This document shows, piece by piece, positions 6,083-61,939 of a stretch of 64,000 nt of DNA (position 1 is the first letter of the stretch; the number at the start of each line of letters is the position of its first letter). The position numbers and the translations under genes are program-made. Source of the DNA: a virus; the IMG/VR virus record IMGVR_UViG_3300028883_000036, positions 43,656-107,655 of that record; one strand, written 5' to 3'. A model generated the notes under the pieces. That model worked only from the letters and a program-made list of their open reading frames with translations, had not been told where the DNA came from and made no database searches.

Positions 6083-6083
6083 A

Positions 6084-7969: not shown

Positions 7970-7983
7970 TATATCTCCTTTTT

Positions 7984-8916: not shown

Positions 8917-8925
8917 ATTATTCTC

Positions 8926-9126: not shown

Positions 9127-9136
9127 AAAATTTTCC

Positions 9137-11247: not shown

Positions 11248-11249
11248 AA

Positions 11250-11639: not shown

Positions 11640-11641
11640 TT

Positions 11642-11866: not shown

Positions 11867-11867
11867 A

Positions 11868-24842: not shown

Positions 24843-25721
24843 TTAAGTAGTACTTGAACTTGAACTTGAAGTTGAACTACTAGAACTTGAACTACCTTGA
24901 ACATTTACATTAACATTTACTTCATAATCCATAAATATTCTTGTTGCTGTAGAATTTAAATGTCTTATTCTTTTTGGTACTATTTCTTTTTTATCATTTA
25001 TTTTTGCAAGTCTAACTATTGTAGTTTTACCAATAATATTAGAATGAGATACATCTTTATAAAATATATCACCTGAAGGAGTCCATGTTGTTACTTCTTC
25101 TTGATGCTCATTAACCCCACCATATTCTAAAGATTCAGATCCTTCAGCAGTACACCATGTAATAATATCATAAAGCATTTTATTACTTACAACTTTATTA
25201 TATTTATTATCATCACATCCACTACTATAATCTACTGGATAAATATCATGTGGACTTGCTGATGGAACTACTGCATTAACATGTGACCACCATTTATTTC
25301 CATAAAAATCAGATATGAATTTATTTTTATCAGATACATCTGCACCTATATTTGTATTTTCCCATGAAAAAGCATTAGGCCAAGGATTTATATTTTGAAT
25401 AACTCCTGGTGCTATACCTGCTTTATACCATTCTAATCTAAATTCTTGAGTATATGGATACCCACCATCTTCCCATTCATTAGCTAACCAAAATTCGAAA
25501 AACCCATTACTATCTGTTTGAATTTCAGCTACACTACTTGTAGTATATGAAGAACCAGTTTCAGTTAAATATATCCTTGCTTCTGTAGTAGGATCATCAT
25601 TTAAATATAAATTAATATAAACATCAGAAATTGGAACTCCTTCTTCATTTAAAACATAATGCCAAAAATGAATTCTAGATAAACTAAAATACGATGATGA
25701 AGAAGAACTTGAACTTGCCAT
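24843..25721 (-). CDS. Tail/baseplate adaptor protein with Ser-rich ends
   Basis: 292 residues. A short Ser run follows the start, then the same domain as in the downstream paralogue (IHFWHYVLNEEGVPISDVYINLYL; NGFFEFWLANEWEDGG; VNAVVPSASPHDIYPVD). A Ser-rich tail of ~20 residues ends the protein. Both Ser tracts differ from the paralogue while the folded core is conserved, so linkers seem to be gained and lost independently. Confidence 0.7.
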   Translation of the reverse strand: MASSSSSSSSYFSLSRIHFWHYVLNEEGVPISDVYINLYLNDDPTTEARIYLTETGSSYTTSSVAEIQTDSNGFFEFWLANEWEDGGYPYTQEFRLEWYKAGIAPGVIQNINPWPNAFSWENTNIGADVSDKNKFISDFYGNKWWSHVNAVVPSASPHDIYPVDYSSGCDDNKYNKVVSNKMLYDIITWCTAEGSESLEYGGVNEHQEEVTTWTPSGDIFYKDVSHSNIIGKTTIVRLAKINDKKEIVPKRIRHLNSTATRIFMDYEVNVNVNVQGSSSSSSSTSSSSSSTT

Positions 25722-32208: not shown

Positions 32209-33921
32209 TTATGTTTCTTCAAATATTTTTACTGTGTTACTTGATAAATAAGGAAACTGATTCAATCCTAATTGAATAGGTCTTAACATATTATCTCTAT
32301 TTGTCCAAGGAGCATTAGACCATTTTGGAAATAATGTTGGATCATCAGAATTAACATTATATTCATATATAGTTTTATTAATGTTAATATCTCTTATATT
32401 TAAATTTCTTATTCCTTTGATATATTCAAAATTATCATCAGGAGATACATTACTTGTATCTATTAAATATTCTGTTATATCATTAAAATCTATTTCACTA
32501 TTAAACAATTGATTTTCAGCCCTAAAATAATAAATAAGTTTATTCAAAACATCTGTTTGAATATCAGCAAAATCATATATTCTTTTCTTTCTTACACCAA
32601 TTTCAAAACTAAAATATATTAAATCAGGAATTTCCATTATTTCATATGCTGATATCATTTTTCTTGGTCTTAAATAAAGAAGTAATTCATTTTCCCATGC
32701 AGAAGAATATCCTATTGGAATTAATATAGATTCTGTTTCATTCCAATCCGTAGTAATAGTACCCGCTGAAGTTTGAATTGTACTATTATTAAAATCTTCA
32801 GGAATAACACTAATATGAACTAAATTATATTCTTGTGGATCTCCTGAACCAGAAGGAACTAAATCTTGTTCACCATAAGCATTAGCTTTAATAACATCTG
32901 ATCTTGCTGATAAAAATGAATTATATGCTGTAGCATTTACATCTCTAAATTGTGATCTCAAAGCTGATTGAGAATTAAATCTAATTTCATCAATAGTTTC
33001 AGGAGCAGAAGCACCTATACTTGCTGCACTTAATGACATAGTAATTACATTATTATTAACATAAGAAGTAGTTATCCCTCTAGTAAGTTCTATAAATTCA
33101 TCTGAATTAATTACCCATGTTTCATCTGCATCTTCACCAATACTTCCATCTGTTCCTAAACTATCTAATGCTATTATAGATATATCATCATCTATTGTGG
33201 GAACATTTCTTGATGAATTAAATACTATTTTATTTCTTCTATATCTATCATATATTGACATATATACATTATCTGAAGATTCAATAACATCTAAATAAAA
33301 ATCTGAAACTCTTGTCCATTCTGTATCATTTACTGTAACTCTAATACTTGGTAATTCATCTGTTAAATCATCATCATATCCATATTCAGAAGGAAGAATT
33401 AACTCATTATCAATTAAATCATCACCTGTATATCCAGTTAAATTAACTAATTCTCCTTGTCTTACTGGAACATTTATAACGGTATCTGTACTTGAAGCTG
33501 TAACTTGTACTGAAGCTGTAGTAGCAAATAAAATTTGATTTCCATCAGTATCTTGTCTTCCTGAATCTAATTGTTTCCAAGGCAACACCCTAAGAACATC
33601 TCCTACTTGTGTTCCTGATACAGCTACTTGTAAAGTACATCTAGCAGATCTTGTTCCTTTTGGTTCATATCCTATTTGTCTTGCCAATCTATTTGCTGCT
33701 TCATAAACATCAGCAGTTTCAAGAAAATTATTTTTTGCTATTTTATTTATAAAAAATGTATTTAATTCACTTACATAAGCATTTAACTCCATTAAAATAG
33801 AAATATTAGATCCTTCAAAATCATAATCTTTAAATACTTCACTATTTTGAAGTTCTGTTTTGAATTTTTCTATTAGAGTTAAAAAATCTGTAGAAAGATA
33901 TTCAGGGGTAAATTCAGCCAT
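32209..33921 (-). CDS. Baseplate wedge protein, T4 gp6-like
   Basis: 570 residues. The N-terminal FEGSNISILMELNAYVSELNTFFINKIAKNNFLETADVYEAANRLARQIGYEPKGTRSARC block is diagnostic in layout of T4/cyanophage gp6 (DFEGS-x-x-x-I-L-x-x-L-x-A-Y ... NE-x-F-L-x-T-A ... A-x-x-x-G-Y-x-P). In T4, gp6 dimers form the inner baseplate ring with gp53 and gp25, both encoded nearby. It is slightly shorter than T4 gp6 (660). Confidence 0.88.
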   Translation of the reverse strand: MAEFTPEYLSTDFLTLIEKFKTELQNSEVFKDYDFEGSNISILMELNAYVSELNTFFINKIAKNNFLETADVYEAANRLARQIGYEPKGTRSARCTLQVAVSGTQVGDVLRVLPWKQLDSGRQDTDGNQILFATTASVQVTASSTDTVINVPVRQGELVNLTGYTGDDLIDNELILPSEYGYDDDLTDELPSIRVTVNDTEWTRVSDFYLDVIESSDNVYMSIYDRYRRNKIVFNSSRNVPTIDDDISIIALDSLGTDGSIGEDADETWVINSDEFIELTRGITTSYVNNNVITMSLSAASIGASAPETIDEIRFNSQSALRSQFRDVNATAYNSFLSARSDVIKANAYGEQDLVPSGSGDPQEYNLVHISVIPEDFNNSTIQTSAGTITTDWNETESILIPIGYSSAWENELLLYLRPRKMISAYEIMEIPDLIYFSFEIGVRKKRIYDFADIQTDVLNKLIYYFRAENQLFNSEIDFNDITEYLIDTSNVSPDDNFEYIKGIRNLNIRDININKTIYEYNVNSDDPTLFPKWSNAPWTNRDNMLRPIQLGLNQFPYLSSNTVKIFEET

Positions 33922-33934: not shown

Positions 33935-34312
33935 TTATCGTGTTAATATAAAACTCACAGTTTCAACTTCATCACTACCTATTATTGTAAAGTTGAGTCT
34001 ACATCTGTATGCATTTTGATCATACAATGGTTCAATATCAAATCTTGTAATATCAATTCTATTTTCCCAAATTTTAATAGCATCAATTAAATTTTCCGCT
34101 ATTTGTCTTGCAGAAATTTCATCAATAGGTTCAAACAAAAGATGTTTTACATTAGAAGCAAAAGTAGGTAGCATTCTTCTTTCCCCTTGAACAGTCAAAA
34201 TAATATTAGTTATACTATTAAATATTGCATCCACATCAGTATCTTTTTCAACATCTCCATCAGACTGTTTTGTAAAACTTCCATCATAATCACTATAAAA
34301 TACTGTTGCCAT
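33935..34312 (-). CDS. Baseplate wedge protein, gp25/GPW-like
   Basis: 125 residues, the usual length of the gp25-like family. The core ITNIILTVQGERRMLPTFASNVKHLLFEPID and the following helix plus strands (RIDITRFDIEPL) match this baseplate and contractile-injection-system protein, which joins the wedge ring to the sheath. The start overlaps the upstream gene's end by 20 bases. Confidence 0.9.
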   Translation of the reverse strand: MATVFYSDYDGSFTKQSDGDVEKDTDVDAIFNSITNIILTVQGERRMLPTFASNVKHLLFEPIDEISARQIAENLIDAIKIWENRIDITRFDIEPLYDQNAYRCRLNFTIIGSDEVETVSFILTR

Positions 34313-34691
34313 TTTTTATCCTCTTTGGGTTTATTTTAATAGAATCTATCTTTCTATCTTTATTTATCTTTAATTGTTTGCATTTTTTAGAATTTTCAGT
34401 AATTAATATGCATTCTGTTTCTTCTTTTGCTTTTTTATTATATAAAATGATATGTTTTTTCTTTTTATAATATTCTTTATTATATTTCTTTATTGCATTT
34501 TTATTATTCTTCTTCCATTTTTCATTACATTTCTGTTGTATTAATTTTCCTTTTTGAGAAGATTTATATTTTTTGGTAATTTTTCTCATACAATCCCTAC
34601 AATATATATTTTTACCATCAGGATTAGATGTTTTTTTACCAAACTTCCCAATTTTTCTATTTCTACCACAACATTTACATATCTTCTTCAT
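34293..34691 (-). CDS. Small zinc-finger protein
   Basis: 132 residues, very Lys-rich. The N-terminus has C5, C7, C8 and C31-x2-C34 (CKCCGRNR... IYCRDCMRKITKKYK), a four-Cys zinc site of the sort that precedes phage HNH/endonuclease VII domains, but no nuclease His/Asn motif follows. It may be a nucleic-acid-binding protein, or a remnant of such a nuclease. It overlaps the gp25-like gene by 20 bases. Confidence 0.6.
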   Translation of the reverse strand: MKKICKCCGRNRKIGKFGKKTSNPDGKNIYCRDCMRKITKKYKSSQKGKLIQQKCNEKWKKNNKNAIKKYNKEYYKKKKHIILYNKKAKEETECILITENSKKCKQLKINKDRKIDSIKINPKRIKNGNSIL

Positions 34692-34842
34692 TTTTTTTAT
34701 GTTTCTTTTTTCTACTATATTTTGATTTATCTTTAAAAAATTGACTACCTTTAGCAGTAGGAATTCTTAATGCTTTCTTTTGATCTAAAGTATCTCTTTT
34801 TTTCTTTTTAGCTTCAGGTAAATATTTATCTATCAAATTCAT
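34675..34842 (-). CDS. Small basic protein with capsid-targeting-like tag
   Basis: A 55-residue gene found by hand. MNLIDKYLPE is followed by AKKKKRDTL and a strongly basic body (KKALRIPTAKG, SRKKKHKKN). The first ten residues match the shared tag ending in L-x-E, so residue 11 would be the mature N-terminus after prohead protease cleavage. AGGAG is 6 bases before the ATG. It overlaps the zinc-finger gene by 17 bases. It could be a DNA-condensing internal head protein. Confidence 0.7.
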   Translation of the reverse strand: MNLIDKYLPEAKKKKRDTLDQKKALRIPTAKGSQFFKDKSKYSRKKKHKKNEEDM

Positions 34843-34843
34843 T

Positions 34844-36274
34844 CTAAACTCCTGTTATCTTTTTGATATATTTTTCAATTTCTTCTTTGTCTTCTATATC
34901 ATGGTCCATTATCCATTCTGTAGTTTGAGTTATTATCTTTCCAATTTTAGGTCCAGGTTTTAATCCTGTCCATTTTATTACATCTTTACCATCCACCAAT
35001 TTAATCTGTTTATTGAGTTGTTTAGCACCAAACTTTTCTTTAACCTTAACGGCTTTATCAACAATTTTTTCAAATTCTCCTGCATGACTAAACATATGTC
35101 CTCTTGCATATTCATCAGCTTTTCCAACACTAACCAATACATCCCAATTATTATCAGAAACAAGTTTAGCTATTTTAGAAGGTTTCATATCAAGAATCTT
35201 ATGAAACTTCATATGATTTCCAACTGCAAATATAAGAGCATCTTTTTCTTTATTACTCATTCTTAATCTATCAGCTATAGCATTCACTAAATCAATTGAT
35301 TTCCTAGCATGACCAAGATATTTGGGTAATCCTTTATCATGAGACAAAGTTATACCTTTACCTACATCGTGTAAAAGTATAGCCAAATTTTTAATCGGAT
35401 CAGCAGAATCACTCTTTTTAAGTGCTGCCATGACATGACTATATACTGTACCACCTTGCCCCCTTGTTTCTGGATGATGTTGTAAATTTTCTCTATACCA
35501 TTTCAAATTAACTATTTCAGGTAATATATGTTTAAGAAGTTTTAACTTATCCAACATATCAATATATTTTGCAAATTTATCTCCACTCTGAGAAGCAGAT
35601 TTCATCAATTCATCTTTAATTCTTTCAGGTGCAAGTCCTGTTATATTATGAGCTAATTTTTGTGCTGCTTTACTTGTATTTTTATCAACCTCAAAATCAA
35701 GTTTAGCTGCAAATCTTGCAAGTCTCATCATCCTCAAATAATCCTCACCAAACCGCTTGTAAGGATCACCAACAGTTTTTAAAACTTTATCTTTGATATC
35801 CCTCTTACCATCAAAATAATCTACAATTTCACCCTTAGAATTGATTCCCATTGCATTTATAGTAAAATCTCTCCTTTCAACATCCTCTTTAAACTTTCCT
35901 GTTATTGTAACCGATTCTGGTCTTCTACCATCAAAATAAGTTCCATCATTTCTAAACTGAGCTATTTCAAAATCATATCCACCTTGTTTCACAACTACAA
36001 TTCCAAAACTTTTTGATTTACCTATATCATATGTTTTAAACATAGTAGATAATTCATCCATAGGCATATTAGTTGCTATATCAACATCATGAGGTTTTAA
36101 ATTACCTAATACAATATCTCTTACACTTCCACCTACTATATAAGCCTTATATTTCTTCTTATTTATCTTATTTAGTATATCAACAGCTACTTTTAATTCT
36201 TTATTTCTTCTTATATAAGATTGCCAATCTTGTAATTTTTCTTTTGCTTCATTCAAATATCTTGTTAGTCTCAT
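34844..36274 (-). CDS. Poly(A) polymerase/CCA tRNA nucleotidyltransferase with HD domain and capsid-tag-like N-terminus
   Basis: 476 residues. The class II nucleotidyltransferase head is clear: YIVGGSVRD (45-53), the catalytic pair in HDVDIAT (62-68), FKEDVERRDFTINAMG and the RFGEDYLRMMRLARFAAKL region. An HD phosphohydrolase domain follows (LLHDVGKG near residue 300). This architecture adds CCA or A residues to RNA 3' ends, with phosphatase/phosphodiesterase activity in the HD part. It begins MRLTRYLNEAKEK, matching the tag ending in L-N-E. In the baseplate operon it is out of place for an RNA enzyme; packaging in the head would explain late expression (inference). Confidence 0.88.
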   Translation of the reverse strand: MRLTRYLNEAKEKLQDWQSYIRRNKELKVAVDILNKINKKKYKAYIVGGSVRDIVLGNLKPHDVDIATNMPMDELSTMFKTYDIGKSKSFGIVVVKQGGYDFEIAQFRNDGTYFDGRRPESVTITGKFKEDVERRDFTINAMGINSKGEIVDYFDGKRDIKDKVLKTVGDPYKRFGEDYLRMMRLARFAAKLDFEVDKNTSKAAQKLAHNITGLAPERIKDELMKSASQSGDKFAKYIDMLDKLKLLKHILPEIVNLKWYRENLQHHPETRGQGGTVYSHVMAALKKSDSADPIKNLAILLHDVGKGITLSHDKGLPKYLGHARKSIDLVNAIADRLRMSNKEKDALIFAVGNHMKFHKILDMKPSKIAKLVSDNNWDVLVSVGKADEYARGHMFSHAGEFEKIVDKAVKVKEKFGAKQLNKQIKLVDGKDVIKWTGLKPGPKIGKIITQTTEWIMDHDIEDKEEIEKYIKKITGV

Positions 36275-36693
36275 TATATATACCCATATTTTTTTGCATT
36301 TTTTATTGATTTATTAGACATAGCAACAGGAATTTTTTTCATACCTAAATCTCTTAATACAGCATATCTATGTCTTCCATTTCCAAAAGATATTCTACCA
36401 ATATCATCAATATCAACAGAAGAAACTATAATATTTCCTTCAGGAGATTCACCTAACCATCTTTTTCTTTCATCTTCTGGTTTTTCTATAATTTCTTTAA
36501 ACATTTTATATCTACCACCAATAGCATTCCCACTTCCACCTTTACCAATATAAAAATTTTTATCCCTTGACCATTCTTTATCAAATTTATTAACAATTAC
36601 TTTTACAATTTTTCTATCAGTTTCAAATTTAGCCTTTTCAAATTTTAAAGACTTCAAATCAATTCCTTCATTCAAATATCTTTTAAATTTCAT
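36274..36693 (-). CDS. ParB/Srx-like domain protein with capsid-tag-like N-terminus
   Basis: 139 residues. VDIDDIGRISFGNGRHRYAVLRDLG contains the G-x-H-R motif of ParB/sulfiredoxin-fold domains, which bind CTP or cleave nucleotides and DNA. It starts MKFKRYLNEG, the same tag as the polymerase gene next to it, with cleavage expected after Glu9. It overlaps that gene by one base. Activity (NTPase, nuclease or ADP-ribosyl-like) cannot be inferred. Confidence 0.75.
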   Translation of the reverse strand: MKFKRYLNEGIDLKSLKFEKAKFETDRKIVKVIVNKFDKEWSRDKNFYIGKGGSGNAIGGRYKMFKEIIEKPEDERKRWLGESPEGNIIVSSVDIDDIGRISFGNGRHRYAVLRDLGMKKIPVAMSNKSIKNAKKYGYI

Positions 36694-37414: not shown

Positions 37415-38683
37415 CTAGCTTGCTTGAGTATTTGTTGTTAATTCACTAGAACTCATTTGTTGATTAGGTGGATCAGTAGTTCCCCCACCATCACCATTTT
37501 CTTTATGAGTATGAGAATTATACACTGAAGCAGCAGTAGCATTCATTATTTTCTTTAATGATCCTTGATTAGCAAGATTTACTGTTCCTGTTAAATTTAT
37601 TGTAGGAGCAGTAACAGTAGTAGTACCATCTGATGTAATATTAGCTGCTCCTGTTACAGTAATATTTAATGCACCACCAATATCTTCTGTTTTATTACCA
37701 CCAATATCTTCTGTTTTATTACCATCAATATCTTCTGTTTTATTACCATCAATATCTTCTGTTTTATTACCACCAATATCTTCTGTTTTATTACCACCAA
37801 TAGTTTGACTCATGTTATTTGTAATTTGTTCTTCTTTGCTACCATTTATTTCTATAGTTTCATCTTCAGCTATTCTCTTTTTTGATCCTGCATCTATAGT
37901 AAGATTTCTTTGTTGTTTAATATGAATGTTTTTACCTTCAGCAATTATTTCATATTTTTCTCCATCATTTTTAACAACCATATTTCCATTATTATCAATT
38001 TCAATAAAACTATTAGATGGATGATAAAGATGTAATCTAGTAGAACCAGGAGTTGAATCTAATTCAATTGTTATTCCACCATGAGTAGCAATAACATGAT
38101 TATGAGGATATTGTGAATTATAAGGTGAAATGGGTTCCGACCAACTACCACCCAAAGCTGTTGGAACACCTAAATCTCTTTCATTATTTTTTGTTGTTAC
38201 TAAAGTTTCTTTTGATATTCCTCTTGATAATCTATGAAAATCAGGTTCACCTAATCTACCATTAACAGGATATTGCCCATCAGGATCTTTAAAGCCATCA
38301 CTTTTATTTGTTTCTCTATTATTATTTGAATATTGTTCCTTTGATTCAGGTATTCCTGGCAAAGAAGCAAAATATCTTGGTTCAGAAGGATTAGAATTTT
38401 CAAAAAATACCATTACTTGTGACCCTTGTAATGGAACAGCCCATGAACCAAATCCACTTATAGATCCTTCATGAATAGGCATACAAGGTTCAGCCCAAGG
38501 TAATTCATCTGTTGGTATACCTTCTATATCATTCTTTGTAATCTTTGGTGTATGTAATCCATGTATTCTTATTCTAACTCTACCTGCTTTTAATGGATCT
38601 TTATTATCTTCAACAACACCACGATAAAAACCAGTTAAATTTTCAATATTAATTCTTAAATCTTTTGGTGGATTTTTAAGCAT
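37415..38683 (-). CDS. Baseplate spike protein, gp5/VgrG-like without lysozyme domain
   Basis: 422 residues. An N-terminal OB domain (GFYRGVVEDNKDPLKAGRVRIRIHGLH; GSQVMVFFENSNPSEPRYFAS) is followed by the VgrG/gp5 C-terminal region (THGGITIELDSTPGSTRLHLYHPSNSFIEIDNNGNMVVKN) and a beta-helix of octapeptide repeats (GGNKTEDI ...). The T4 gp5 lysozyme domain between OB and beta-helix is absent. It forms the trimeric needle at the tail tip that pierces the outer membrane. Confidence 0.88.
   Translation of the reverse strand: MLKNPPKDLRINIENLTGFYRGVVEDNKDPLKAGRVRIRIHGLHTPKITKNDIEGIPTDELPWAEPCMPIHEGSISGFGSWAVPLQGSQVMVFFENSNPSEPRYFASLPGIPESKEQYSNNNRETNKSDGFKDPDGQYPVNGRLGEPDFHRLSRGISKETLVTTKNNERDLGVPTALGGSWSEPISPYNSQYPHNHVIATHGGITIELDSTPGSTRLHLYHPSNSFIEIDNNGNMVVKNDGEKYEIIAEGKNIHIKQQRNLTIDAGSKKRIAEDETIEINGSKEEQITNNMSQTIGGNKTEDIGGNKTEDIDGNKTEDIDGNKTEDIGGNKTEDIGGALNITVTGAANITSDGTTTVTAPTINLTGTVNLANQGSLKKIMNATAASVYNSHTHKENGDGGGTTDPPNQQMSSSELTTNTQAS
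37673..37792 (-). repeat. 24-bp tandem repeats in the spike gene
   Basis: Five near-perfect copies of a 24-base unit (plus strand accaccaatatcttctg... with accatca in two of them), each coding one octapeptide NKTED-I-G/D-G of the spike beta-helix, plus a partial copy. In-frame gain or loss would lengthen or shorten the needle. Confidence 0.92.
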
Positions 38684-40775: not shown

Positions 40776-40783
40776 TATTTATA
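40776..40783 (-). promoter_or_regulatory. Candidate T4-type late promoter for the baseplate operon
   Basis: TATAAATA on the minus strand, identical to the T4 late -10 element read by gp55, placed ~50 bases before the first baseplate gene and just after a terminator. The element alone is common by chance in this A+T-rich DNA, but its position and the presence of a gp55-like gene support it. Confidence 0.45.
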
Positions 40784-41863: not shown

Positions 41864-42844
41864 TTATGGATTAGCATATGGAGAAGATGGTGGTGTAAAA
41901 TCTACTCCTTGATATGCTGCATAATTTAATATTCTAAGTTCATCAATATACATATCTATATTATTACTTCCATCACCATCAAATCCAATTCTTAATGGAT
42001 CTCCATTATCATATATCGTTCCAGAAAATGCTACAGGTGAATTATCTTTTGTTCCATTCCAATAGAAATATAAATTATTTCCATATCTCTCAAAAGCAAA
42101 ATGTCTCCATGATGCTGCTCCAATATAATATGAACCACCAACATGAGTCCATGCACCAGCACCAGCAGTAGCTACAGCAAATGTTGGTCTTCCTGCTCCT
42201 TGTGTTTGAAGTTTTCCCCAACGATAAGAATTAGCAGTAATACTTTTACTTATAAAATGAGAATCACCAGGATAATCTACAAGACGCATCCAGCAATCAA
42301 TAGTAAAATCTTTATCACCAAAAGCAAGTACTGAATGATGAGCAACATCAAGCCAAGTATTTGCTGCTACATGACATGAATAACTTCCAAATTTAGACGT
42401 TCCAGACCTTACAGCACCATTTAAAGTTACACTATGACTATAATTTGATGAATCAGTCAATCCTACATCATCCATATGCATTAAAAGAATTATTTGTTCT
42501 GTTGCACTCTCACTACTTGAAGAACTTTTACTACTTGAGCTTGAAGATTCAGAGCTTGAACTTATAGAACTGCTACTTTCAGAGCTTGAACTTATAGAAC
42601 TGCTACTTTCAGAGCTTGAACTTGAAGATTCAGAGCTTGAACTTATAGAACTGCTACTTTCAGAGCTTGAACTTATAGAACTGCTACTTTCAGAGCTTGA
42701 ACTTATAGAACTACTACTTTCAGAGCTTGAACTTATAGAACTGCTACTTTCAGAGCTTGAACTTATAGAACTACTACTTGAACTACTTGAAGATGATCTT
42801 ATAGTAATATAAAAAGCTAAATTTTGTTGTGATTTAAAACTCAT
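41864..42844 (-). CDS. Serine-rich fibre with C-terminal LamG/concanavalin domain
   Basis: 326 residues. A 16-residue N-terminal strand (SFKSQQNLAFYITIR) leads to ~100 residues of SSSSSES/SSSSSIS repeats, then a LamG-like jellyroll (DKDFTIDCWMRL; GDSHFISKS; YIDELRILNYAAY). LamG domains bind carbohydrates or proteins. The DNA of the linker is a tandem array of 30-base units. Confidence 0.85.
   Translation of the reverse strand: MSFKSQQNLAFYITIRSSSSSSSSSSISSSSESSSSISSSSESSSSISSSSESSSSISSSSESSSSISSSSESSSSSSESSSSISSSSESSSSISSSSESSSSSSKSSSSSESATEQIILLMHMDDVGLTDSSNYSHSVTLNGAVRSGTSKFGSYSCHVAANTWLDVAHHSVLAFGDKDFTIDCWMRLVDYPGDSHFISKSITANSYRWGKLQTQGAGRPTFAVATAGAGAWTHVGGSYYIGAASWRHFAFERYGNNLYFYWNGTKDNSPVAFSGTIYDNGDPLRIGFDGDGSNNIDMYIDELRILNYAAYQGVDFTPPSSPYANP
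42551..42781 (-). repeat. 30-bp tandem repeat array coding the Ser linker of the LamG fibre
   Basis: About eight copies of a 30-base unit (plus strand begins agagcttgaacttatag), with one shortened unit around 42611-42631. Each codes ten residues of Ser with one Ile and one Glu. Copy-to-copy identity is high, suggesting recent expansion. Confidence 0.9.
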
Positions 42845-42973: not shown

Positions 42974-43282
42974 CTAACAAATATCTGTAACTAAAATTTT
43001 TGTGCAATGATTTGTGATATCACCATCATTTCTATGTATTTCCCAATAAAGATCATATTCAGCAGCACTAGCTGTTATCGTTTGAGTTACTGTTGTCCAT
43101 ATTTGATTTTTATAAACTCTTGCAGCAGAACGTGAAACTAAAACATTATCTTTTATAGACCCTTTAATTTGATAATAAGCACCAGAAGGATAAAAAGCTT
43201 CTCCTGTACTTCTATTCCATACATTTAATTGTACAGTAGACTTATTATTTCTGCTTAATTCTATATATGTTTTGTCTGCCAT
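42974..43282 (-). CDS. Beta-rich structural protein, BppU-N-like
   Basis: 102 residues. RNNKSTVQLNVWNRSTGEAFYPSGAYYQIKGSIKDNVLVSRSAARVYKNQIWTTV has the look of the beta-sandwich N-terminal domain of baseplate upper proteins that attach fibres. It is followed by the serine fibre genes, so it may be their anchor. No stronger assignment. Confidence 0.6.
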   Translation of the reverse strand: MADKTYIELSRNNKSTVQLNVWNRSTGEAFYPSGAYYQIKGSIKDNVLVSRSAARVYKNQIWTTVTQTITASAAEYDLYWEIHRNDGDITNHCTKILVTDIC

Positions 43283-43785
43283 TATTTTTTCCTTTTAGTT
43301 TTTTTCTTTTTTCTAAATGTTATAGCTTTCTTAAATTTACTTAGTAAAGCTGTTGTTATTTTCTTACTAAAATCTTTCGAAAATGTTGATACAACTACTT
43401 TTTCTATATTATCAAATGGTATTTCTTCTAAATTTCTTATATAATAATTAGGTTTAAAAAAATATCTTCTTATAGCTGGTTTTAAATATGGATATTTTGA
43501 TATAACCTTTCTCCATGTAAATTTTATATTTCCTGATCTATCTAATTCTTTCATCCATATCTTTAAAAATCTTTTTCTTTGTGCTCTTGGAATATAAGTA
43601 AAATTGATACATTGAAATATTCTCCATTGATGCCCTGAATTTTGATGAATACCTTCTATAGATGCCATAAAAATTACAGTAGGTTTTGGATCATGTTCCC
43701 AAGCTTGATATTTAAATCTATAAAAATGACCTGAACGTAGAGCAACACCTTTAAACTTCTTTCTATAAATATGTCTTAAAGCCAT
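43282..43785 (-). CDS. Basic structural protein, unknown
   Basis: 167 residues, very basic, with a Lys-Arg tail (RKKKKTKRKK). The core (GHQWRIFQCINFTYIPRAQRKRFLKIW; YLKPAIRRYFFKPNYYIRNLEEIPF) looks like a conserved phage protein that I cannot name. A DNA-contacting head or neck role would fit the charge and location. It has one-base overlap with each neighbour. Confidence 0.6.
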   Translation of the reverse strand: MALRHIYRKKFKGVALRSGHFYRFKYQAWEHDPKPTVIFMASIEGIHQNSGHQWRIFQCINFTYIPRAQRKRFLKIWMKELDRSGNIKFTWRKVISKYPYLKPAIRRYFFKPNYYIRNLEEIPFDNIEKVVVSTFSKDFSKKITTALLSKFKKAITFRKKKKTKRKK

Positions 43786-44055
43786 TTATTTCATCCAATC
43801 TATTATTTGATTAACTGTACCTTGCCCACCAATTATATACTTTCCATATGTATTAATTAATTTTTTAACTTTCTTTTTATCACCTTTTTTCATTGCCCAT
43901 GAAACATTAGCAGTTATTTCCCCTTCTTTACCTTTCATTACTTTAGCAATTTGTTCTAATGCATCAGCAAGACTACTTTTATCATATTTAGAAGAATCAA
44001 ATTTCATATTAGGAATATATTTGGCTTCACCTATATATTTTTCTATTAAATCCAT
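43786..44055 (-). CDS. Tagged small head-type protein (MDLIEKYIGE)
   Basis: 89 residues. The first ten residues match the common tag ending I-G-E, with Ala at the predicted new N-terminus (E|AKYIP). The remainder is a compact helical domain (SSLADALEQIAKVMKGKEGE; KKVKKLINTYGKYIIGG). No known family. It is likely to be an internal head protein. Confidence 0.7.
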   Translation of the reverse strand: MDLIEKYIGEAKYIPNMKFDSSKYDKSSLADALEQIAKVMKGKEGEITANVSWAMKKGDKKKVKKLINTYGKYIIGGQGTVNQIIDWMK

Positions 44056-44056
44056 A

Positions 44057-44344
44057 TTATTTTCCTAACCCTTTTATGATTTCTTTAGGTGAAGCATTAA
44101 GATATTTTGCTGATTTTAATGATTTATTTATCGCCTTTTTAATATCATTAAAAAGAATTCCATAAACTTTATTATAATCTTTTATATCACCAAATGTAGA
44201 ATATTCCAAAGGAAGTAATTTTTCTAATTGAGAAATAGCAATTCTCTTTTCACCCATTATCGCTCTTGTCATAGCATCAGCAACACCATTTACATTAGAT
44301 GATGATTCATTTAATTTCAAATCAATCTTTTCCATTATATTCAT
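44057..44344 (-). CDS. Tagged small head-type protein (MNIMEKIDLKLNE)
   Basis: 95 residues from the ATG at 44344, which has AAGGAG seven bases upstream; the open frame extends to 44368. The tag MNIMEKIDLKLNE is nearly identical to that of the next gene upstream, and the 5' leader with AAGGAGAATTGATATG is also shared, showing duplication. The rest is helical (VADAMTRAIMGEKRIAISQLEKLL; INKSLKSAKYLN). The bodies have diverged more than the tags. Confidence 0.7.
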   Translation of the reverse strand: MNIMEKIDLKLNESSSNVNGVADAMTRAIMGEKRIAISQLEKLLPLEYSTFGDIKDYNKVYGILFNDIKKAINKSLKSAKYLNASPKEIIKGLGK

Positions 44345-44383
44345 ATCAATTCTCCTTACTAAATTCATTTATTTAATCTAATC

Positions 44384-44659
44384 TTATTGCATTCTTTTAT
44401 ATTCAATTAACATAGTACGAACAGCATCAATATATCTAATAATTGCTTGACTCATATTTGATTTATCTCTATTATAATCCAAATCGCTTATCATAGATGT
44501 TCCACCAACAATATCTTCCATTTTTTCTATTTCTTTACTAATGTTACTAGTTATTTTATTAAATTCTTTTGATTTTTTTATAAGATCATTAAAATTACGT
44601 TCCAATCCACTTACATTAGCTTCATTTAATTTTAAATCAATCTTTTCCATTAAATCCAT
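44384..44659 (-). CDS. Tagged small head-type protein (MDLMEKIDLKLNE)
   Basis: 91 residues from the ATG at 44659 (AAGGAG upstream; the frame is open to 44689). The tag ends L-N-E|A. The body is helical (FNDLIKKSKEFNKITSNISKEIEKM). It is a tag-level paralogue of the gene downstream. It overlaps nothing once the later start is used. Confidence 0.7.
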   Translation of the reverse strand: MDLMEKIDLKLNEANVSGLERNFNDLIKKSKEFNKITSNISKEIEKMEDIVGGTSMISDLDYNRDKSNMSQAIIRYIDAVRTMLIEYKRMQ

Positions 44660-44673
44660 ATCAATTCTCCTTA

Positions 44674-44955
44674 TTAAACAAAATTCCAAACTTGTCCTTG
44701 ACCAGCTTTAAATTCATCTATTTCATCAGAATCTTCAAGTTCCATTTCTTTCTTAACTCCTGCAAAATGACCTTCAGCATTAGTACCAGCAAGACTAATA
44801 TAATCATCACCAAATAATGCTTCTACTCTATCTCCTGGTCTAAAATCCCCCCACCAATTTAAAAATTGAATTGGTCTTGTTCCATCAACCATATCCCCTT
44901 TTACATATGTTTCAGACACAAACATATCTAATTTTTTTAATAATTCATCTCCCAT
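44674..44955 (-). CDS. Tagged small head-type protein (LLKKLDMFVSE)
   Basis: 93 residues: MGDELLKKLDMFVSETYVKGD. The predicted cleavage site V-S-E deviates from [L/I]-x-E in its first position, but the N-terminus resembles that of the gene at 61049 (LLKKLDIMISDMTVAGD). The body has an SH3/KOW-like beta segment (FRPGDRVEALFGDDYISLAG). Good ribosome-binding site (AAGGAG). Confidence 0.68.
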   Translation of the reverse strand: MGDELLKKLDMFVSETYVKGDMVDGTRPIQFLNWWGDFRPGDRVEALFGDDYISLAGTNAEGHFAGVKKEMELEDSDEIDEFKAGQGQVWNFV

Positions 44956-44965
44956 TTTTATCTCC

Positions 44966-45394
44966 TTATTTATTTAGCCATTCTTTATGATTATCAGGAT
45001 CAATATAACCTTTAATTTTCATTACGACTGATGTTAAATAATCCCATTTATCCATTTCTGTATTAAAATTAAATTTTCCCCATCCTGCTATACTAATTTT
45101 ATCTTTTGTTAAATTAATAATATGTTTATCAGAAAATATATTAGGTATTCTCTTATTCAATTCTTTTTTTATATCTTTTCTATATTCACTCCATCCTTTA
45201 TCAGTACTCAAATTATATTTACTTAATTTTATACTCTTTAAAGCATCACTAACTTTTTTATAATAATCAGTTTCAGATTTTACAGTTTCTTTATATTCTT
45301 TCTTTTTATTTCCTTCTAATTTATCATAAATTTGTTTTCTTTTTCTATTTCTACCAAATATATCTTCACATAAATATTTATCTATTAAATTCAT
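44966..45394 (-). CDS. Tagged head-type protein (MNLIDKYLCE)
   Basis: 142 residues; MNLIDKYLCE|DIFGRNRKRK, tag ending L-C-E. The mature part is basic at first, then mixed charge, with a beta segment (DKISIAGWGKFNF) at the end. I do not recognise it. A 45-base gap precedes it with only a weak ribosome-binding site. Confidence 0.7.
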   Translation of the reverse strand: MNLIDKYLCEDIFGRNRKRKQIYDKLEGNKKKEYKETVKSETDYYKKVSDALKSIKLSKYNLSTDKGWSEYRKDIKKELNKRIPNIFSDKHIINLTKDKISIAGWGKFNFNTEMDKWDYLTSVVMKIKGYIDPDNHKEWLNK

Positions 45395-45439
45395 AATCTA
45401 TTTTCCATTTATTTAATATTACCAAATAACTTTTAAATC

Positions 45440-45889
45440 TCATTTATTATTCCTAAATAAATCCTTTTCTGTTAATATTATAAATTCATAACCAAGTTTT
45501 TTACAATACATTTTTGCTGCTTTAAATTTTGCTTGATTAGTAAGAAATGTAGTTTCTCTCATCATCATTGTTTTTTTACTTTTCCCACCTTTTTTTCTTG
45601 GCATTCTTAAATCTTTTTCTGGTTTTACTTCTATAATAAACTTCTTTCTATTTTTAAACATTACATAAAAATCAGGATAATATATTCTATTTTTACCTTT
45701 AAGACCATCAAAATAAGGTATTCTATGTCCCTCACTTGACCATTCTAAAACTTGTTTGTTATAATCAAGCCACTGACATACTTTATATTCCCATGAAGAT
45801 CTACATACTATTGGATATGTTCCACAATATTTTTCAGTATATTCTGGTATATATTCACGTTCATTTTTATTTCTTTTGTATTTCTTCAT
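45440..45889 (-). CDS. Head completion protein, T4 gp4-like, nuclease fold
   Basis: 149 residues. CRSSWEYKVCQWLDYNKQVLEWSSEG, then YYPDFYVMFKNRKKFIIEVKP, then FKAAKMYCKKLGYEFIILTEKDL. The P-D-x(n)-E-x-K arrangement is that of PD-(D/E)xK nucleases, and this combination is found in proteins annotated as gp4 head completion in T4-like phages of similar length. In T4, gp4 acts with gp50 at the end of packaging. It lies in the middle of the tagged head genes. Confidence 0.8.
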   Translation of the reverse strand: MKKYKRNKNEREYIPEYTEKYCGTYPIVCRSSWEYKVCQWLDYNKQVLEWSSEGHRIPYFDGLKGKNRIYYPDFYVMFKNRKKFIIEVKPEKDLRMPRKKGGKSKKTMMMRETTFLTNQAKFKAAKMYCKKLGYEFIILTEKDLFRNNK

Positions 45890-46315
45890 CTACATAAATT
45901 TTCTAATTCTCTTTCCTCTTGCAGTTTTACCTTGAGATACTTTTCTTTTCTTCATTCTATTCCATTGTTTATATTTAGTGGTTCTTCTGAATTTTTTAGC
46001 TTTCAATTTTAAAGCTGCTCTATTCCTTCTATATTCCATTCTTCTTTTTCTTTTATCAGAAGGTTTGATTTTAACTTTTCTTGCTGTTACAGCTTCTTCA
46101 ACATCATCATCAAAAATATTATCAATGTTATCATCTGCAATTTGATCAATTATTTCTGTCAATTCTTCAACTTGATCTTCAGAAAGATTATCAGTATTAA
46201 GATTAATAATAAATTCCATCATTTTATTCATCATTGAAACATCTTCTTCAGGATAGTATTCATCAGAATCTTTATCATTTAGGTAATCTTCAAGTTTTTT
46301 CTGAATATCACTCAT
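45890..46315 (-). CDS. Acidic/basic bipartite head core protein A
   Basis: 141 residues. The N-terminal ~75 residues are strongly acidic (EEDVSMMNKMMEFIINLN; SEDQVEELTEIIDQIADD), and the C-terminal ~60 are almost purely basic (DKRKRRMEYRRNRAALKLKAKKFRRT; KRKVSQGKTARGKRIRKFM). It starts MSDIQKKLEDYLND, like the tag but with Asp in place of Glu. It is a paralogue of the gene at 46648. The layout suits a prohead core component that binds DNA after proteolysis. Confidence 0.7.
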   Translation of the reverse strand: MSDIQKKLEDYLNDKDSDEYYPEEDVSMMNKMMEFIINLNTDNLSEDQVEELTEIIDQIADDNIDNIFDDDVEEAVTARKVKIKPSDKRKRRMEYRRNRAALKLKAKKFRRTTKYKQWNRMKKRKVSQGKTARGKRIRKFM

Positions 46316-46339
46316 TAGTTTATCTCCTTTTTTTAAATA

Positions 46340-46603
46340 TTAATCATCATATCCATATACCTTCCCACCTTTTTTCTTCTTTGTTTCTCCTGATGCATTC
46401 CATTTTTTATCTACCTCATTAAAAAAATCATCTTGTTTATTTTTGGGAAGATCTTTATAGCTTTTTACTTTCCATTTCTTTAACATTTTTTTAAAGAACT
46501 CATCATATTCTTTACCACCAACTTTTCTTTTAGCTTCTAATACTCTATCTAACCTATTTTCTATTTTATCAATTTGTGATTCAATTTTATCTATAATTCT
46601 CAT
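46340..46603 (-). CDS. Small head-type protein (MRIIDKIES...RVLE)
   Basis: 87 residues. The start is a long amphipathic helix with K-I-E repeats ending RVLE|AKRK (V-L-E, near consensus). The rest is basic with KKKGGKVYGYDD at the C-terminus. AGGAG precedes the ATG. Probably another internal head protein. Confidence 0.65.
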   Translation of the reverse strand: MRIIDKIESQIDKIENRLDRVLEAKRKVGGKEYDEFFKKMLKKWKVKSYKDLPKNKQDDFFNEVDKKWNASGETKKKKGGKVYGYDD

Positions 46604-46647
46604 TATCTATTCTCCTATTATTTTAAAATAGTTACAGAAATTTTCTT

Positions 46648-47106
46648 TTAGTTATTTCTATCACTTCTCTTTCTTACATGATATTTAACTTTTCTTCTTC
46701 CTGTAGATGTTCTTCCTTGACTTTCTAATCTTTCTTTAGTTCTTAATCTTTTCCTACCTTCAGAACTTCTTTTTAATCTTTCTTTCCTTTTTTTAATTTG
46801 TGTTTTATTTGTACTATACCATTTTTTTGATGCTTGATTTTTAGTTGAAGTTGACATTCTAGCAAGTTTAGGATTTCCTTCTTCCTGTATATCTTCAACT
46901 TCAACTTCAAGTTTTTCTATCATATCTATTACTTCTTCAATTTGAGAATCAGTTAATTTATCTGGTTCAAGATTAATTATAAAATTTGCCATTTTTGAAA
47001 ATATTTTTTCATCAAATGAAAAACTAGTATCCACCTTAGTCTTTCCTTTAGGTAATATATTATTCTCTTGTTCAAGAATATCATCTATCTTATCAAATAA
47101 ATTCAT
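46648..47106 (-). CDS. Acidic/basic bipartite head core protein B, tagged
   Basis: About 152 residues from the ATG at 47106 (frame open to 47118). Tag MNLFDKIDDILE|QEN (I-L-E). It has an acidic middle (FIINLEPDKLTDSQIEEVIDMIEKLEVEVEDIQEE) matching core protein A at FIINL-x-x-D-x-L, then a basic Ser/Arg/Lys tail (KKRKERLKRSSEGRKRLRTKERL). The overall plan is the same as protein A: a cleavable N-terminus, acidic dimer-like helix and histone-like tail. Confidence 0.7.
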   Translation of the reverse strand: MNLFDKIDDILEQENNILPKGKTKVDTSFSFDEKIFSKMANFIINLEPDKLTDSQIEEVIDMIEKLEVEVEDIQEEGNPKLARMSTSTKNQASKKWYSTNKTQIKKRKERLKRSSEGRKRLRTKERLESQGRTSTGRRKVKYHVRKRSDRNN

Positions 47107-47108
47107 AT

Positions 47109-47822
47109 CTAACCCCAAAAATAATCAAAAAAATCTTCTTCATCGACTTTAGCAAGTCTCATAAATGTATCAGCTACATTCATATCAATAACCTTTTTCT
47201 TAACTGAAGATTCACATTTATTCATTTTCTGTTTCATATTTTTTAACCAAAATGACATTTCTCTAAATGCAGTATCTTCATTTGATTCACTTACCATTTC
47301 TAATGCTTCTTTTACAGGACTTTTTTTCTTTTTATCTTTCTTTTTCTTATCACCTTTTTTAGCAACCTTTAATTCATATTCATCACCATCATCTTCATCT
47401 TCTTCAGGTGGTAATTCTTCTTCAGGTGGTGCTTCTTCATCAGTAGGTGGTGGTCCATTTCCTTGCCCATCTAATACATCTCTTACTCTTGATTCTTGTT
47501 TCTCAAATGCAGGTAAAACTTGACCCTTTCTATCAACAGCATTAACAATAGCTCTTAATGCCATTATAAATTCAGAATATTCTTTAGACATATCAGCTAA
47601 AAGTTGATGAGCTTTTTTAACAAACATTGGATTATCTTCAACAGCTATAATTTGATCTTCTAAGCTATCAATAAATTCTTCAATTCTATCATCCAATTCA
47701 TGAAGCTTATTAAGCATTTTTTTATTTTTACCATTTTTTTTAGTATCGTCATTCTTTTTTTTAGTATCATTATTTTTTTTCTTAACTGCTTCATTTAAAA
47801 TTTTTCTAAGATGTTCTCCCAT
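47109..47822 (-). CDS. Tagged scaffold-like head core protein (MGEHLRKILNE)
   Basis: 237 residues. Tag ending I-L-N-E|A, then a Lys/Asn/Asp-rich stretch, a long helical middle (LHELDDRIEEFIDSLEDQIIAVEDN) and a Pro/Glu-rich acidic segment (PPPTDEEAPPEEELPPEEDEDDGD) followed by a Lys run. Alternating acidic and basic low-complexity zones with a cleavable end are typical of prohead core/scaffold proteins. AGGAG is upstream of the ATG. Confidence 0.68.
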   Translation of the reverse strand: MGEHLRKILNEAVKKKNNDTKKKNDDTKKNGKNKKMLNKLHELDDRIEEFIDSLEDQIIAVEDNPMFVKKAHQLLADMSKEYSEFIMALRAIVNAVDRKGQVLPAFEKQESRVRDVLDGQGNGPPPTDEEAPPEEELPPEEDEDDGDEYELKVAKKGDKKKKDKKKKSPVKEALEMVSESNEDTAFREMSFWLKNMKQKMNKCESSVKKKVIDMNVADTFMRLAKVDEEDFFDYFWG

Positions 47823-47824
47823 TA

Positions 47825-48121
47825 TTATCTCCTTTCCATTTCTTCAGCATCCTTATTAATAGATTCTAAATGCTTTGAAATAGAATCATCCATTTTTTCA
47901 TATGCTATTGATATTGAATCTCTCATCTTTTTATATTTAGGATTTACAACTTTTTTTCCTTGCATCATCAATCCCATAGCTTTCATATAATACTGACTAA
48001 ATTCATTAAATGCATTTCTCAATGAATATACTCCTTCTCTATACATTTGAATTTTCTTATCATCACTTGATTCATAAATTTTATCATCAATTAAATATTT
48101 TTCAATTTTCCTCATATTCAT
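47825..48121 (-). CDS. Tagged small head-type protein (MRKIEKYL...KIYE)
   Basis: 98 residues from the ATG at 48121, whose A overlaps the upstream TGA (TGATG); the alternative GTG at 48124 is less likely. The N-terminus MMNMRKIEKYLIDDKIYE contains I-Y-E|S as the candidate cleavage site. The body is helical and Met-rich (FSQYYMKAMGLMMQG). Confidence 0.66.
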   Translation of the reverse strand: MNMRKIEKYLIDDKIYESSDDKKIQMYREGVYSLRNAFNEFSQYYMKAMGLMMQGKKVVNPKYKKMRDSISIAYEKMDDSISKHLESINKDAEEMERR

Positions 48122-48327
48122 CACATAATCCCCCCATCAATTAATTTCATTACTTGTTCTCTTATATCTTTATCCAATATAGAAAGAATTTTATCTTTAT
48201 CATTAGATTTTTTAATAATTTCAATTATATCTTCTAAATCTCTACCCATATTTAAAGATAAAGAAATAGCATCTTTTTTTTCTTGTATTGATAAATATCC
48301 ATCAATTTTTTCTAAAAGTAATTTCAT
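48121..48327 (-). CDS. Tagged small head-type protein (MKLLLEKIDGYLSIQE)
   Basis: 68 residues: MKLLLEKIDGYLSIQE|KKDAIS (I-Q-E) then a helical body (NMGRDLEDIIEIIKKSNDKDKILSILDKDIREQV). It is the first gene of the leftward head cluster. No Shine-Dalgarno is visible and a TATAAATA box ends 9 bases before the ATG, so the transcript would have almost no leader. Confidence 0.65.
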   Translation of the reverse strand: MKLLLEKIDGYLSIQEKKDAISLSLNMGRDLEDIIEIIKKSNDKDKILSILDKDIREQVMKLIDGGIM

Positions 48328-49999: not shown

Positions 50000-50371
50000 A
50001 TGAATTTAATAGATAAATACTTAGGAGAAGGATATTCACAAAATACACCATCAGAAATAATAACAGCTATACAAAGAAAAGGGAAAAAAATAGCAAATGA
50101 TCCCTTTGATATTAATAAAGCATATTTTAATTTAGATGGAACTGTATATAAAGCAGGAGTTGGTAAAGGTGTTGTCAATATGGGAGACATAAAAAGTTTT
50201 ATTAAAAAGGTAAAAACTGGAAAATTAAAAGCTAAATTAGTTGAAGGTAAAACATCATCAACACAAATGCAATGCATGGAATGTGGTCATAAATTCAAAA
50301 AGAAATTAGGAAGAAATACATTTGAAGTGAAATGTCCGAAGTGTAAAGGATATGATACTGAACCAGTATAA
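50000..50371 (+). CDS. Tagged zinc-ribbon protein (MNLIDKYLGE)
   Basis: 123 residues. Perfect tag MNLIDKYLGE|G. The C-terminus is a zinc ribbon: CMECGHKF ... VKCPKCKG (two C-x2-C pairs). The middle contains FNLDGTVYKAGVGKG, beta-rich. It is likely to be a packaged nucleic-acid-binding protein. It follows the holin gene by 11 bases, with AGAGG before the start. Confidence 0.72.
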   Translation: MNLIDKYLGEGYSQNTPSEIITAIQRKGKKIANDPFDINKAYFNLDGTVYKAGVGKGVVNMGDIKSFIKKVKTGKLKAKLVEGKTSSTQMQCMECGHKFKKKLGRNTFEVKCPKCKGYDTEPV

Positions 50372-50587: not shown

Positions 50588-50953
50588 ATGAGATATTTCA
50601 GATATTTAACAGAAGAAAATGTTATATCAAAAGCATTAAATCTTCCAGAACCTAAAGTTGGTGGTGATTATCCCCCTGAAAAGGTTAAAAGATATATAAA
50701 AATAATTGAAGATGCTTTAGCAGCAATGGCAAATAAAGAAGAAAGTGAATCTAATGATGCTATTGTATCTGATTTAAGAGATAAAAAAAGTAAATGGAAA
50801 AATGTAAATAAAGAAACAAAACCAACTAAAACTAAATTGGAAGTTCCCCCTGATCAAGAAGAAGAACCACCACCTGAACAGGAAGAACCACCACAAAAAA
50901 AAGAAGAACCAAAAGAAAGTAAAATTGAGAAAATGTTTAGAAAAATGCTCTAA
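50588..50953 (+). CDS. Tagged protein with proline-rich tail (MRYFRYLTE)
   Basis: 121 residues. MRYFRYLTE|ENVIS (L-T-E). A helical domain is followed by a Pro/Glu/Lys tail (VPPDQEEEPPPEQEEPPQKKEEP) similar in character to the scaffold-like protein at 47109. Its 3' end overlaps the 3' end of the DNA polymerase gene by 17 bases, tail to tail, with no terminator between them. Confidence 0.68.
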   Translation: MRYFRYLTEENVISKALNLPEPKVGGDYPPEKVKRYIKIIEDALAAMANKEESESNDAIVSDLRDKKSKWKNVNKETKPTKTKLEVPPDQEEEPPPEQEEPPQKKEEPKESKIEKMFRKML

Positions 50954-53670: not shown

Positions 53671-53746
53671 TGGTAGGGGGGGTGGGATTCGAACCCACAC
53701 TGGAAGGATTTTAAGTCCTTTGACTCTGCCGTTGGCCTACCCCCCC
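53671..53746 (-). tRNA. tRNA with Leu anticodon UAA, class I (short variable arm)
   Basis: A 76-base cloverleaf with encoded CCA. Acceptor GGGGGGG/CCCCCCT (G1-U72 pair), D-arm GGCC...AGTC with AACGG loop, anticodon stem AAGGA/TCCTT with loop CTTAAAA (anticodon TAA, codon UUA), 5-base variable region, T-stem GTGGG/CCCAC with TTCGAAT. Discriminator A. Bacterial tRNA-Leu normally has a long variable arm; this does not. Confidence 0.88.
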
Positions 53747-53778
53747 ATTATACTTTTCTGATATATAACATTTTTAAT

Positions 53779-53857
53779 TGGTAGGGATAGAAGGATTCGA
53801 ACCTTCAGATTCTTGATTTTGAATCAAGTGCCTATACCAAAATTCGGCTATATCCCC
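53779..53857 (-). tRNA. tRNA with Leu anticodon CAA, class I (short variable arm)
   Basis: A 79-base cloverleaf with encoded CCA. Acceptor GGGGATA/TATCCCT, D-arm GCC...GGC with an unusually long 13-base loop, anticodon stem CTTGA/TCAAG with loop TTCAAAA (anticodon CAA, codon UUG), 5-base variable region, T-stem GAAGG/CCTTC. Discriminator A. Short variable arm as in its two neighbours. Confidence 0.85.
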
Positions 53858-53860
53858 TTG

Positions 53861-53936
53861 TGGTAGGGATGGGTGGATTCGAACCACCACTGAATAGCTT
53901 CTAAGACTATTGACTCTGCCGTTGGTCTACATCCCC
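53861..53936 (-). tRNA. tRNA with Leu anticodon UAG, class I (short variable arm)
   Basis: A 76-base cloverleaf with encoded CCA, three bases from the next tRNA. Acceptor GGGGATG/CATCCCT, D-loop and variable region very like the first tRNA (CCAACGGCAGAGTCA; CAGT), anticodon stem ATAGT/GCTAT with loop CTTAGAA (anticodon TAG, codon CUA), T-stem GGTGG/CCACC. Discriminator A. It looks like a duplicate of the UAA tRNA with a changed anticodon. Confidence 0.86.
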
Positions 53937-61447: not shown

Positions 61448-61449
61448 AA

Positions 61450-61929
61450 TTATCCCATTTTAGAATCAACTTTCACATTAGAAAGTTTTCCTTTCGGTAA
61501 ATGACCATTTTTAACATGAGAAGCAATCATATCTTCAAATTTTTTCTTTGCTGCTTTTTCATCATTACCAACTACAGGTAATGTGACTTTTTTCTTACCA
61601 GCACTACCAGCATCAAAAATACCTGAAAAATTAAAAATTGATTCATTTATATCTTCTTTCATTCCTTTAGCTGTATTCCAAATTTTTTTCATATCAGAAT
61701 CAATATATTTCAGAAAATCTTTCGATTTCATTCCTTTTGTAGGCACCATAGCATGACCAATATATTCTCTACTATTTAAATCTCTAAATTGAATTTTAAC
61801 TTCTTTATTTCCTGGTTTCCATAATACCTCTACTTGAGTTTTTTTATCCATCATTCTATTAGATATACCCATATCATTATACCATTTAGTTTCATTTATA
61901 ACACCATCAATTTTTTCTGTTATATCCAT
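61450..61929 (-). CDS. Tagged head-type protein (MDITEKIDGVINE)
   Basis: 159 residues. MDITEKIDGVINE|T (I-N-E). The body has a beta-rich KTQVEVLWKPGNKEVKIQFRDLNSREYIGHAM segment and a Lys-rich end. The tag is very similar to the next gene upstream (MDITDKIDFILQE). Unknown family. Confidence 0.7.
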   Translation of the reverse strand: MDITEKIDGVINETKWYNDMGISNRMMDKKTQVEVLWKPGNKEVKIQFRDLNSREYIGHAMVPTKGMKSKDFLKYIDSDMKKIWNTAKGMKEDINESIFNFSGIFDAGSAGKKKVTLPVVGNDEKAAKKKFEDMIASHVKNGHLPKGKLSNVKVDSKMG

Positions 61930-61939
61930 TACTTCCCCC

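Follow-up and report, generated by a model that had tools for sequence, protein, structure and literature searches.

A CCA-adding tRNA nucleotidyltransferase with a capsid-targeting-like N-terminal tag as probable injected cargo in a lineage of T4-like phages

The DNA analyzed here (hereafter the window) is a stretch of 64,000 nucleotides corresponding to positions 43,656 to 107,655 of the virus record IMGVR_UViG_3300028883_000036, a linear record of 107,655 bp. At 34844..36274 on its minus strand it encodes a protein of 476 amino acids that, as judged from sequence, is a class II tRNA nucleotidyltransferase of the CCA-adding type with intact catalytic motifs and an HD-type C-terminal region. 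The first nine residues of this enzyme, MRLTRYLNE (36248..36274, minus strand), resemble the capsid-targeting sequence of the phage T4 internal proteins, with a predicted cut after E9, and similar tags are found on many unrelated open reading frames (ORFs) of the same lineage. We propose, with moderate confidence, that the CCA-adding enzyme of this T4-like phage is a capsid cargo made late in infection and injected into the next cell for early repair of tRNA 3'-ends.

The ORF begins with an ATG, its N-terminus being MRLTRYLNEAKEK and its translation opening MRLTRYLNEAKEKLQDWQ. Profile searches recovered the Pfam domains PolyA_pol (5e-32) and PolyA_pol_RNAbd (8e-12), both above their cut-offs, and the PHROG tRNA nucleotidyltransferase family (4e-74). 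In a profile search of the Protein Data Bank (PDB) the closest solved structures were 6ibp and 1miv, the CCA-adding enzymes of Planococcus and Bacillus stearothermophilus, with 157 bits as against 107 for poly(A) polymerase. Likewise, the top-ranking NCBIfam model is the CCA family PRK13299 at 254 bits, below its cut-off of 290, whereas the PcnB profile is not the best match and scores 158 bits (cut-off 306). The head-domain motifs GGxVRD, D63xD65, RRD134-136 and ED177xxR181 are invariant across 14 relatives, as are H267, H280, H302-D303, H322 and H354 of the HD-type part. The protein thus shares its head, neck and RNA-binding domains, together with its catalytic motifs, with the class II CCA-adding enzymes of the Bacillus/Planococcus type, but differs from them in being phage-borne and in possessing an N-terminal extension of about 25 residues, which holds the tag, as well as the HD-type region. 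The original prediction of a nucleotidyltransferase-HD ORF starting with MRLTRYLNE is borne out by the Pfam and PHROG matches, the HD part being read from its invariant motifs.

In T4 the ipII and ipIII products start with MKTYQEFIAE|A (as taken from the T4 record), and MRLTRYLNE|A aligns with this sequence while being one residue shorter. Mutagenesis of the T4 sequence has shown that targeting depends mainly on residues 4 and 7 and processing on residues 8 and 10 (PMC9026906). With the shift by one, these determinants correspond to F/L3, Y/F6, L/I7 and E9 of the present tags, all of which are constrained columns (columns 2, 6, 7 and 9 being partly fixed by the search pattern described below, column 3 not), while columns 4, 5 and 8 are variable. 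As in T4 IPII and IPIII (and IPI and Alt), an N-terminal tag of about 10 residues precedes unrelated and diverse cargo and has [LI]xE at its end, followed by a small residue; as in the T4 internal-protein system, a prohead protease gp21 and a scaffold gp22 are present within the lineage. Unlike in T4, the cargo comprises a tRNA nucleotidyltransferase and several other enzymes, the tagged ORFs number tens rather than a handful, the tag is one residue shorter (MKFxRYLxE) and is joined by a second type (MDLxxKIDxxLxE), and processing is predicted. Two forms of tag can be recognized on ORFs of the late region, namely M[KR]xxRYLxE and M[DN]LxxK(Y or ID)xxLxE, of which the second may represent a docking class distinct from that of the MKFxRYLxE tag. 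This second form (MDLIDKIDxxLxE or MNLIDKYLxE) is carried by numerous small ORFs in the neighborhood of the gp2- and gp4-like head genes of the window, at 43786-48327 and 61049-62194.

Loss of the tag in close relatives that keep the enzyme had been named in the original prediction as an argument against packaging; we saw no such loss, as the tag is retained in 19/19 of the closest relatives with a readable N-terminus. Among wider relatives, most members as distant as about 47% identity retain it; it is modified in some (L179, L183) and missing in L188, L185 and L195. Enzymes that carry the tag group together with support (SH-aLRT 99), the tag apparently having been lost once within the group. 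No tag is present in 11 CCA-adding enzymes from outside the lineage, 10 of them from annotated phage records and the other being gp18 of Agrobacterium phage Atu_ph07, so that phage CCA-adding enzymes do not carry it as a rule. Such untagged enzymes (PHROG 2244) belong to the same family and have been proposed to repair RNA once phage genes have been expressed (PMC7824862). The dialect of the tag appears to go with the phage, as read from lists rather than from a formal test: the enzyme of L194 starts with MKTFKQYLVEA and its neighbors with MKRFKQYLNES and MKSFKQHLKEY. In another contig, L024, the gene for the enzyme (8902-11166) is split by a GIY-YIG homing endonuclease-like ORF, MMIIYKVTNKINKKSYVGKS, and an Rfam intron search at this split gene gave no match; the corresponding genes of L026, L181, L182 and L197 may also be interrupted.

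That the tag exceeds chance and is common to many unrelated ORFs of the lineage emerged from counts across contigs, all of which are metagenomic and most of which are partial; genes were called as simple longest ORFs, and small ORFs may be wrong. An initial, looser pattern was weakly enriched in some contigs and was replaced by the strict pattern M[KR].{2,4}[YFWHI][LIMV].E, which was chosen after inspection of the data. In 8 related contigs the strict pattern matched 39 non-redundant ORFs, as against 1.7 obtained by shuffling residues 2-20 (a maximum of 6 in 1000 shuffles) and 1.4 predicted from internal methionines. As the pattern had been set post hoc, it was applied unchanged to two contigs that had played no part in setting it, in which 32/475 ORFs were tagged against 0.9 expected (a maximum of 5 in 500 shuffles). 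The second form of the tag, the pattern for which was likewise set post hoc, is found in 8/63 late ORFs and 0/108 early ORFs of the contig to which the window belongs.

In the window both ORFs flanking the enzyme are themselves tagged, a point missed in the original prediction. The upstream neighbor (36274..36693, minus strand) encodes a protein of 139 amino acids starting with MKFKRYLNEG, for which Pfam and PHROG searches returned no family match, and the downstream one (34675..34842, minus strand, from the gene list) a protein of 55 amino acids with the second type of tag, MNLIDKYLPEA. As had been claimed, the enzyme lies here among gp5-, gp25- and gp6-like genes. These are, all on the minus strand, a gp5-like baseplate hub (37415..38683; Pfam Gp5_OB and Gp5_trimer_C), a gp25-like baseplate wedge (33935..34312; Pfam GPW_gp25) and a gp6-like baseplate wedge (32209..33921; Pfam Gp6-like_1st and PHROG), with a small EndoVII-like protein (34293..34691, minus strand; a weak PHROG match of 2.5e-5) between the tagged genes and gp25. 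Throughout the run from 40726 down to 31783, which contains these and other baseplate genes, intergenic gaps do not exceed 13 bp, making co-transcription likely, and from its place in this run the gene for the enzyme is likely to be expressed late. The T4 late-promoter word TATAAATA was also considered as a sign of late expression and rejected, as it is not enriched in the window (28 occurrences against 26.7 expected); a copy is present at 40776-40783 (minus strand), 50 bp upstream of the baseplate run.

The gene is likewise found in a baseplate run among tagged genes in G001, G004, G009 and several other contigs. G012 (156 kb) contains 20 ORFs that match the strict pattern, most of them clustered in runs, and there the gene sits in a tagged run close to a gp32-like gene; in G022 it lies in an island (140173-148186) in which most ORFs are tagged, a second tagged island being present at 48-57 kb; and in G019 and G010 it occupies a tagged island beside helicase genes. 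The location thus differs in G010, G012, G019 and G022 and is always within a tagged run, implying that the baseplate location is incidental: the claim of a baseplate-operon gene holds in the window and fails as a general rule. The tagged genes that accompany it encode, among others, RimK-like ATP-grasp proteins, zeta-like kinases, NT5C-like nucleotidases, a C39-type peptidase and GP88. RimK-like ATP-grasp cargo was noted in L042 (3176-4555), L055 (18414-19835) and L225 (5489-6913), with the respective starts MRLKYYITEA, MSKFNDFIFES and MKYEKYLTPKEE; two of these three proteins match the Pfam family 'putative ATP-dependent zinc protease' at their C-terminus. A further conserved partner of the gene, of about 605-637 amino acids (L012 11431-13242; L014 9254-11071; L024 11163-12980; L031 9634-11547), has a tag-like start and no family match; by eye its Cys-rich motifs resemble those of GP88.

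The machinery that would be needed to package and process such cargo is encoded within the lineage. A profile search with T4, SCTP-2 and Atu_ph07 as positive controls found neither the prohead protease gp21 nor Gp23 in the contig of the window or in the first 16 contigs, as would be expected of fragments. Two relatives whose assemblies break at other points, G022 and G019, whose CCA-adding enzymes are 70% identical to that of the window, encode both a gp21 Peptidase_S77 and Gp23, and proteins of G022 exceed the cut-offs for the prohead core serine protease and the T4-like capsid assembly scaffold (T4_CASP). A small tagged ORF (MNFEKYLTEA) sits between gp21 and gp22 in G022. LxE sites of the kind that ends the tag occur, as predicted cuts, at the start of gp21 (MKLITE|T) and in the N-terminal part of gp23 (VLNE|G and WLQE|A or YLME|Q).

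Comparable arrays are present in jumbo phages, where a tagged, unclassified protein of G012 has relatives in Atu_ph07, SCTP-2 and XacN1. In Atu_ph07 (L059 9370-20478) gp53-gp63 are eleven adjacent paralogues starting with M[RK]WxQLxE or similar, and in Salicola phage SCTP-2 (L058 7126-12744) a run of paralogues starting with MK[IV]ND[IL]LKE lies close to the large terminase gene; both phages carry gp21 and gp23. Thus, like the present lineage, they possess gene runs with a lineage-specific tag (MRWEQLTE and MKINDILKE), but their arrays hold no CCA-adding enzyme, and gp18, the CCA-adding enzyme of Atu_ph07, is untagged. The coding sequences (CDS) 31-76 of Atu_ph07 include 29 virion-associated proteins, which the main text of that report does not list individually (PMC6102473). 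The gp53-gp63 array falls inside this interval, and the numbering fits (gp70 being a helicase at 54522); as the identities of the 29 are absent from that main text, we regard the array as supporting rather than decisive. An ADP-ribosyltransferase reading of the tagged paralogues, suggested by eye from an R / S-x-T / E pattern, found no support in a PDB profile search or in hhalign against T4 Alt and stands as unproven.

The T4 internal proteins offer a precedent for the fate of such cargo, being tagged, packaged and ejected proteins that can be anti-defence factors. IPI blocks the GmrSD restriction enzyme, and IPIII is required on one E. coli strain and is active in the cytoplasm without its tag. 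As regards the original prediction that the enzyme is tagged for packaging, the tag itself stands, being shared, conserved, accompanied by a gp21 and a scaffold in the lineage, and matched by the T4 precedent; packaging in the virion, which we infer from these features, is likely. The steps that we infer, from late expression through packaging, cleavage and ejection to tRNA repair, would run as follows. Residues 1-9 would dock the enzyme on the scaffold core as a capsid-targeting sequence, and a gp21-type protease would cut after E9; the mature enzyme, starting from A10, would stay among the packaged DNA and leave the capsid together with it. From the first minutes in the new host, ahead of any phage gene expression, the enzyme would rebuild or protect the 3'-CCA of tRNAs of both host and phage; its HD-type region may clear away 2',3'-cyclic or 2'-phosphates that nucleases have left behind.

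Several points weigh against this proposal. The case for packaging comes from genes rather than from a virion proteome, and the 107-kb contig of the window itself is without gp21 and gp23, which is consistent with an incomplete contig: the record lacks most head genes and is probably a fragment, and a search for contigs prolonging its left end found none. The score of the enzyme falls short of the NCBIfam CCA equivalog cut-off, leaving its exact nucleotide specificity unproven; the Pfam HD domain gave no match at E 0.001; and an AlphaFold model (mean pLDDT 51) was too poor and was discarded. Furthermore, the host has its own CCA-adding enzyme or an equivalent, so that the benefit of an injected copy is presumed.

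The observations are nevertheless best accounted for by repair of tRNA ends early in infection, possibly as a counter to tRNA-cutting defences. A more specific version, in which the injected enzyme would be a first-strike counter-defence undoing an attack on tRNA 3'-ends within a large packaged toolkit, together with the RimK-type ATP-grasp protein, the zeta-like kinase, the NT5C-like nucleotidase and the C39-type peptidase, appears to us unlikely as a full account. One such attack is known from Cas12a3, a tRNA-tail-cutting immune nuclease described in 2026, to which, according to its discoverers, the viral means of resistance is unknown (PMC12851939). A packaged CCA-adding enzyme is an obvious candidate for this role, and nothing in the present data links the lineage to a Cas12a3-bearing host.

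It is less likely still that the enzyme is packaged with a different main job, either the tailing of host RNAs with A or C to inactivate or mark them, or the hydrolysis by its HD region of a phosphate-bearing signal or RNA end. Poly(A) polymerases share the PolyA_pol head domain, the PcnB profiles do match, and the HD motifs are invariant in the 14 relatives; however, the Bacillus-type CCA-adding enzymes match best by both profile and structure, in the scores given above, which weakens the case for RNA tailing. It is rather improbable, too, that this is an ordinary late enzyme maturing or repairing phage tRNAs in the producing cell, its tag being a by-product of the structural-gene surroundings. 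Phage CCA-adding enzymes are common (473 phage records match) and are usually read as serving tRNA repair or maintenance (PMC7824862), and tRNA genes are present in this phage and its relatives: the window has only three, all for tRNA-Leu (53671..53936, minus strand), while G001 has 20 and G012 36. However, CCA is already encoded in all three tRNA genes of the window and in nearly all of those of G001 and G012, which lessens the case for maturation and leaves that for repair standing; moreover, the existence of untagged phage enzymes indicates that the enzyme can do without a tag, and the tag accompanies the gene to other genomic sites. That the motif docks to some other phage structure (neck, baseplate or membrane), without serving as a capsid tag or being cleaved by gp21, is very improbable, for although tagged ORFs also occur near neck and baseplate genes, the spacing and residues fit the T4 capsid-targeting sequence, sites like the terminal [LI]xE occur as well in the gp21 and gp23 encoded on the same contigs, and a tagged gene lies between gp21 and gp22 in G022.

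Beyond the baseplate run, further tagged ORFs are scattered through the window. On the minus strand, a gp2-like DNA end protector (43282..43785; PHROG) adjoins a run of tagged ORFs, and the tagged ORFs MDLIEKYIGEA (43786..44055) and MNLIDKYLCED (44966..45394) are found in this region; at higher coordinates come a gp4-like head closure protein (45440..45889; PHROG, 2e-44), the tagged ORF MNLFDKIDDILEQE (46648..47106) and the tagged acidic ORF MGEHLRKILNEA (47109..47822); and another tagged ORF, MDITEKIDGVINET, is found at 61450..61929. Two more lie on the plus strand, MNLIDKYLGEG (50000..50371) and MRYFRYLTEE (50588..50953), the latter having relatives in G001 and G022 that are tagged too. Proteins containing long poly-serine stretches are encoded close to the tail genes (21311-23482, 24843-25721 and 41864-42844), and a large run of genes that by eye appear related to sugar metabolism (416-12911) lies between the early and late regions.

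Both capsid-targeted ejected proteins of T4-like phages and phage CCA-adding enzymes are known; what is new is the class of cargo on a known delivery route and the unusually large set of tagged genes. In the literature searched we found no CCA-adding enzyme described from a virion, listed in a published virion proteome or reported to carry a tag of this sort, and the present enzyme would therefore, if the proposal is true, be the first injected tRNA-repair enzyme found in that literature. The tag has been suggested to let T4-like phages take in varied cargo (PMC9026906). If injection occurs as proposed, tRNA rescue would shift from a stage after phage gene expression to the moment of entry. 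The lineage's own N-terminal tag would also provide a simple sequence readout of its likely injected arsenal, including many proteins that belong to no known family, each of which is a testable candidate for a role in early takeover or counter-defence.
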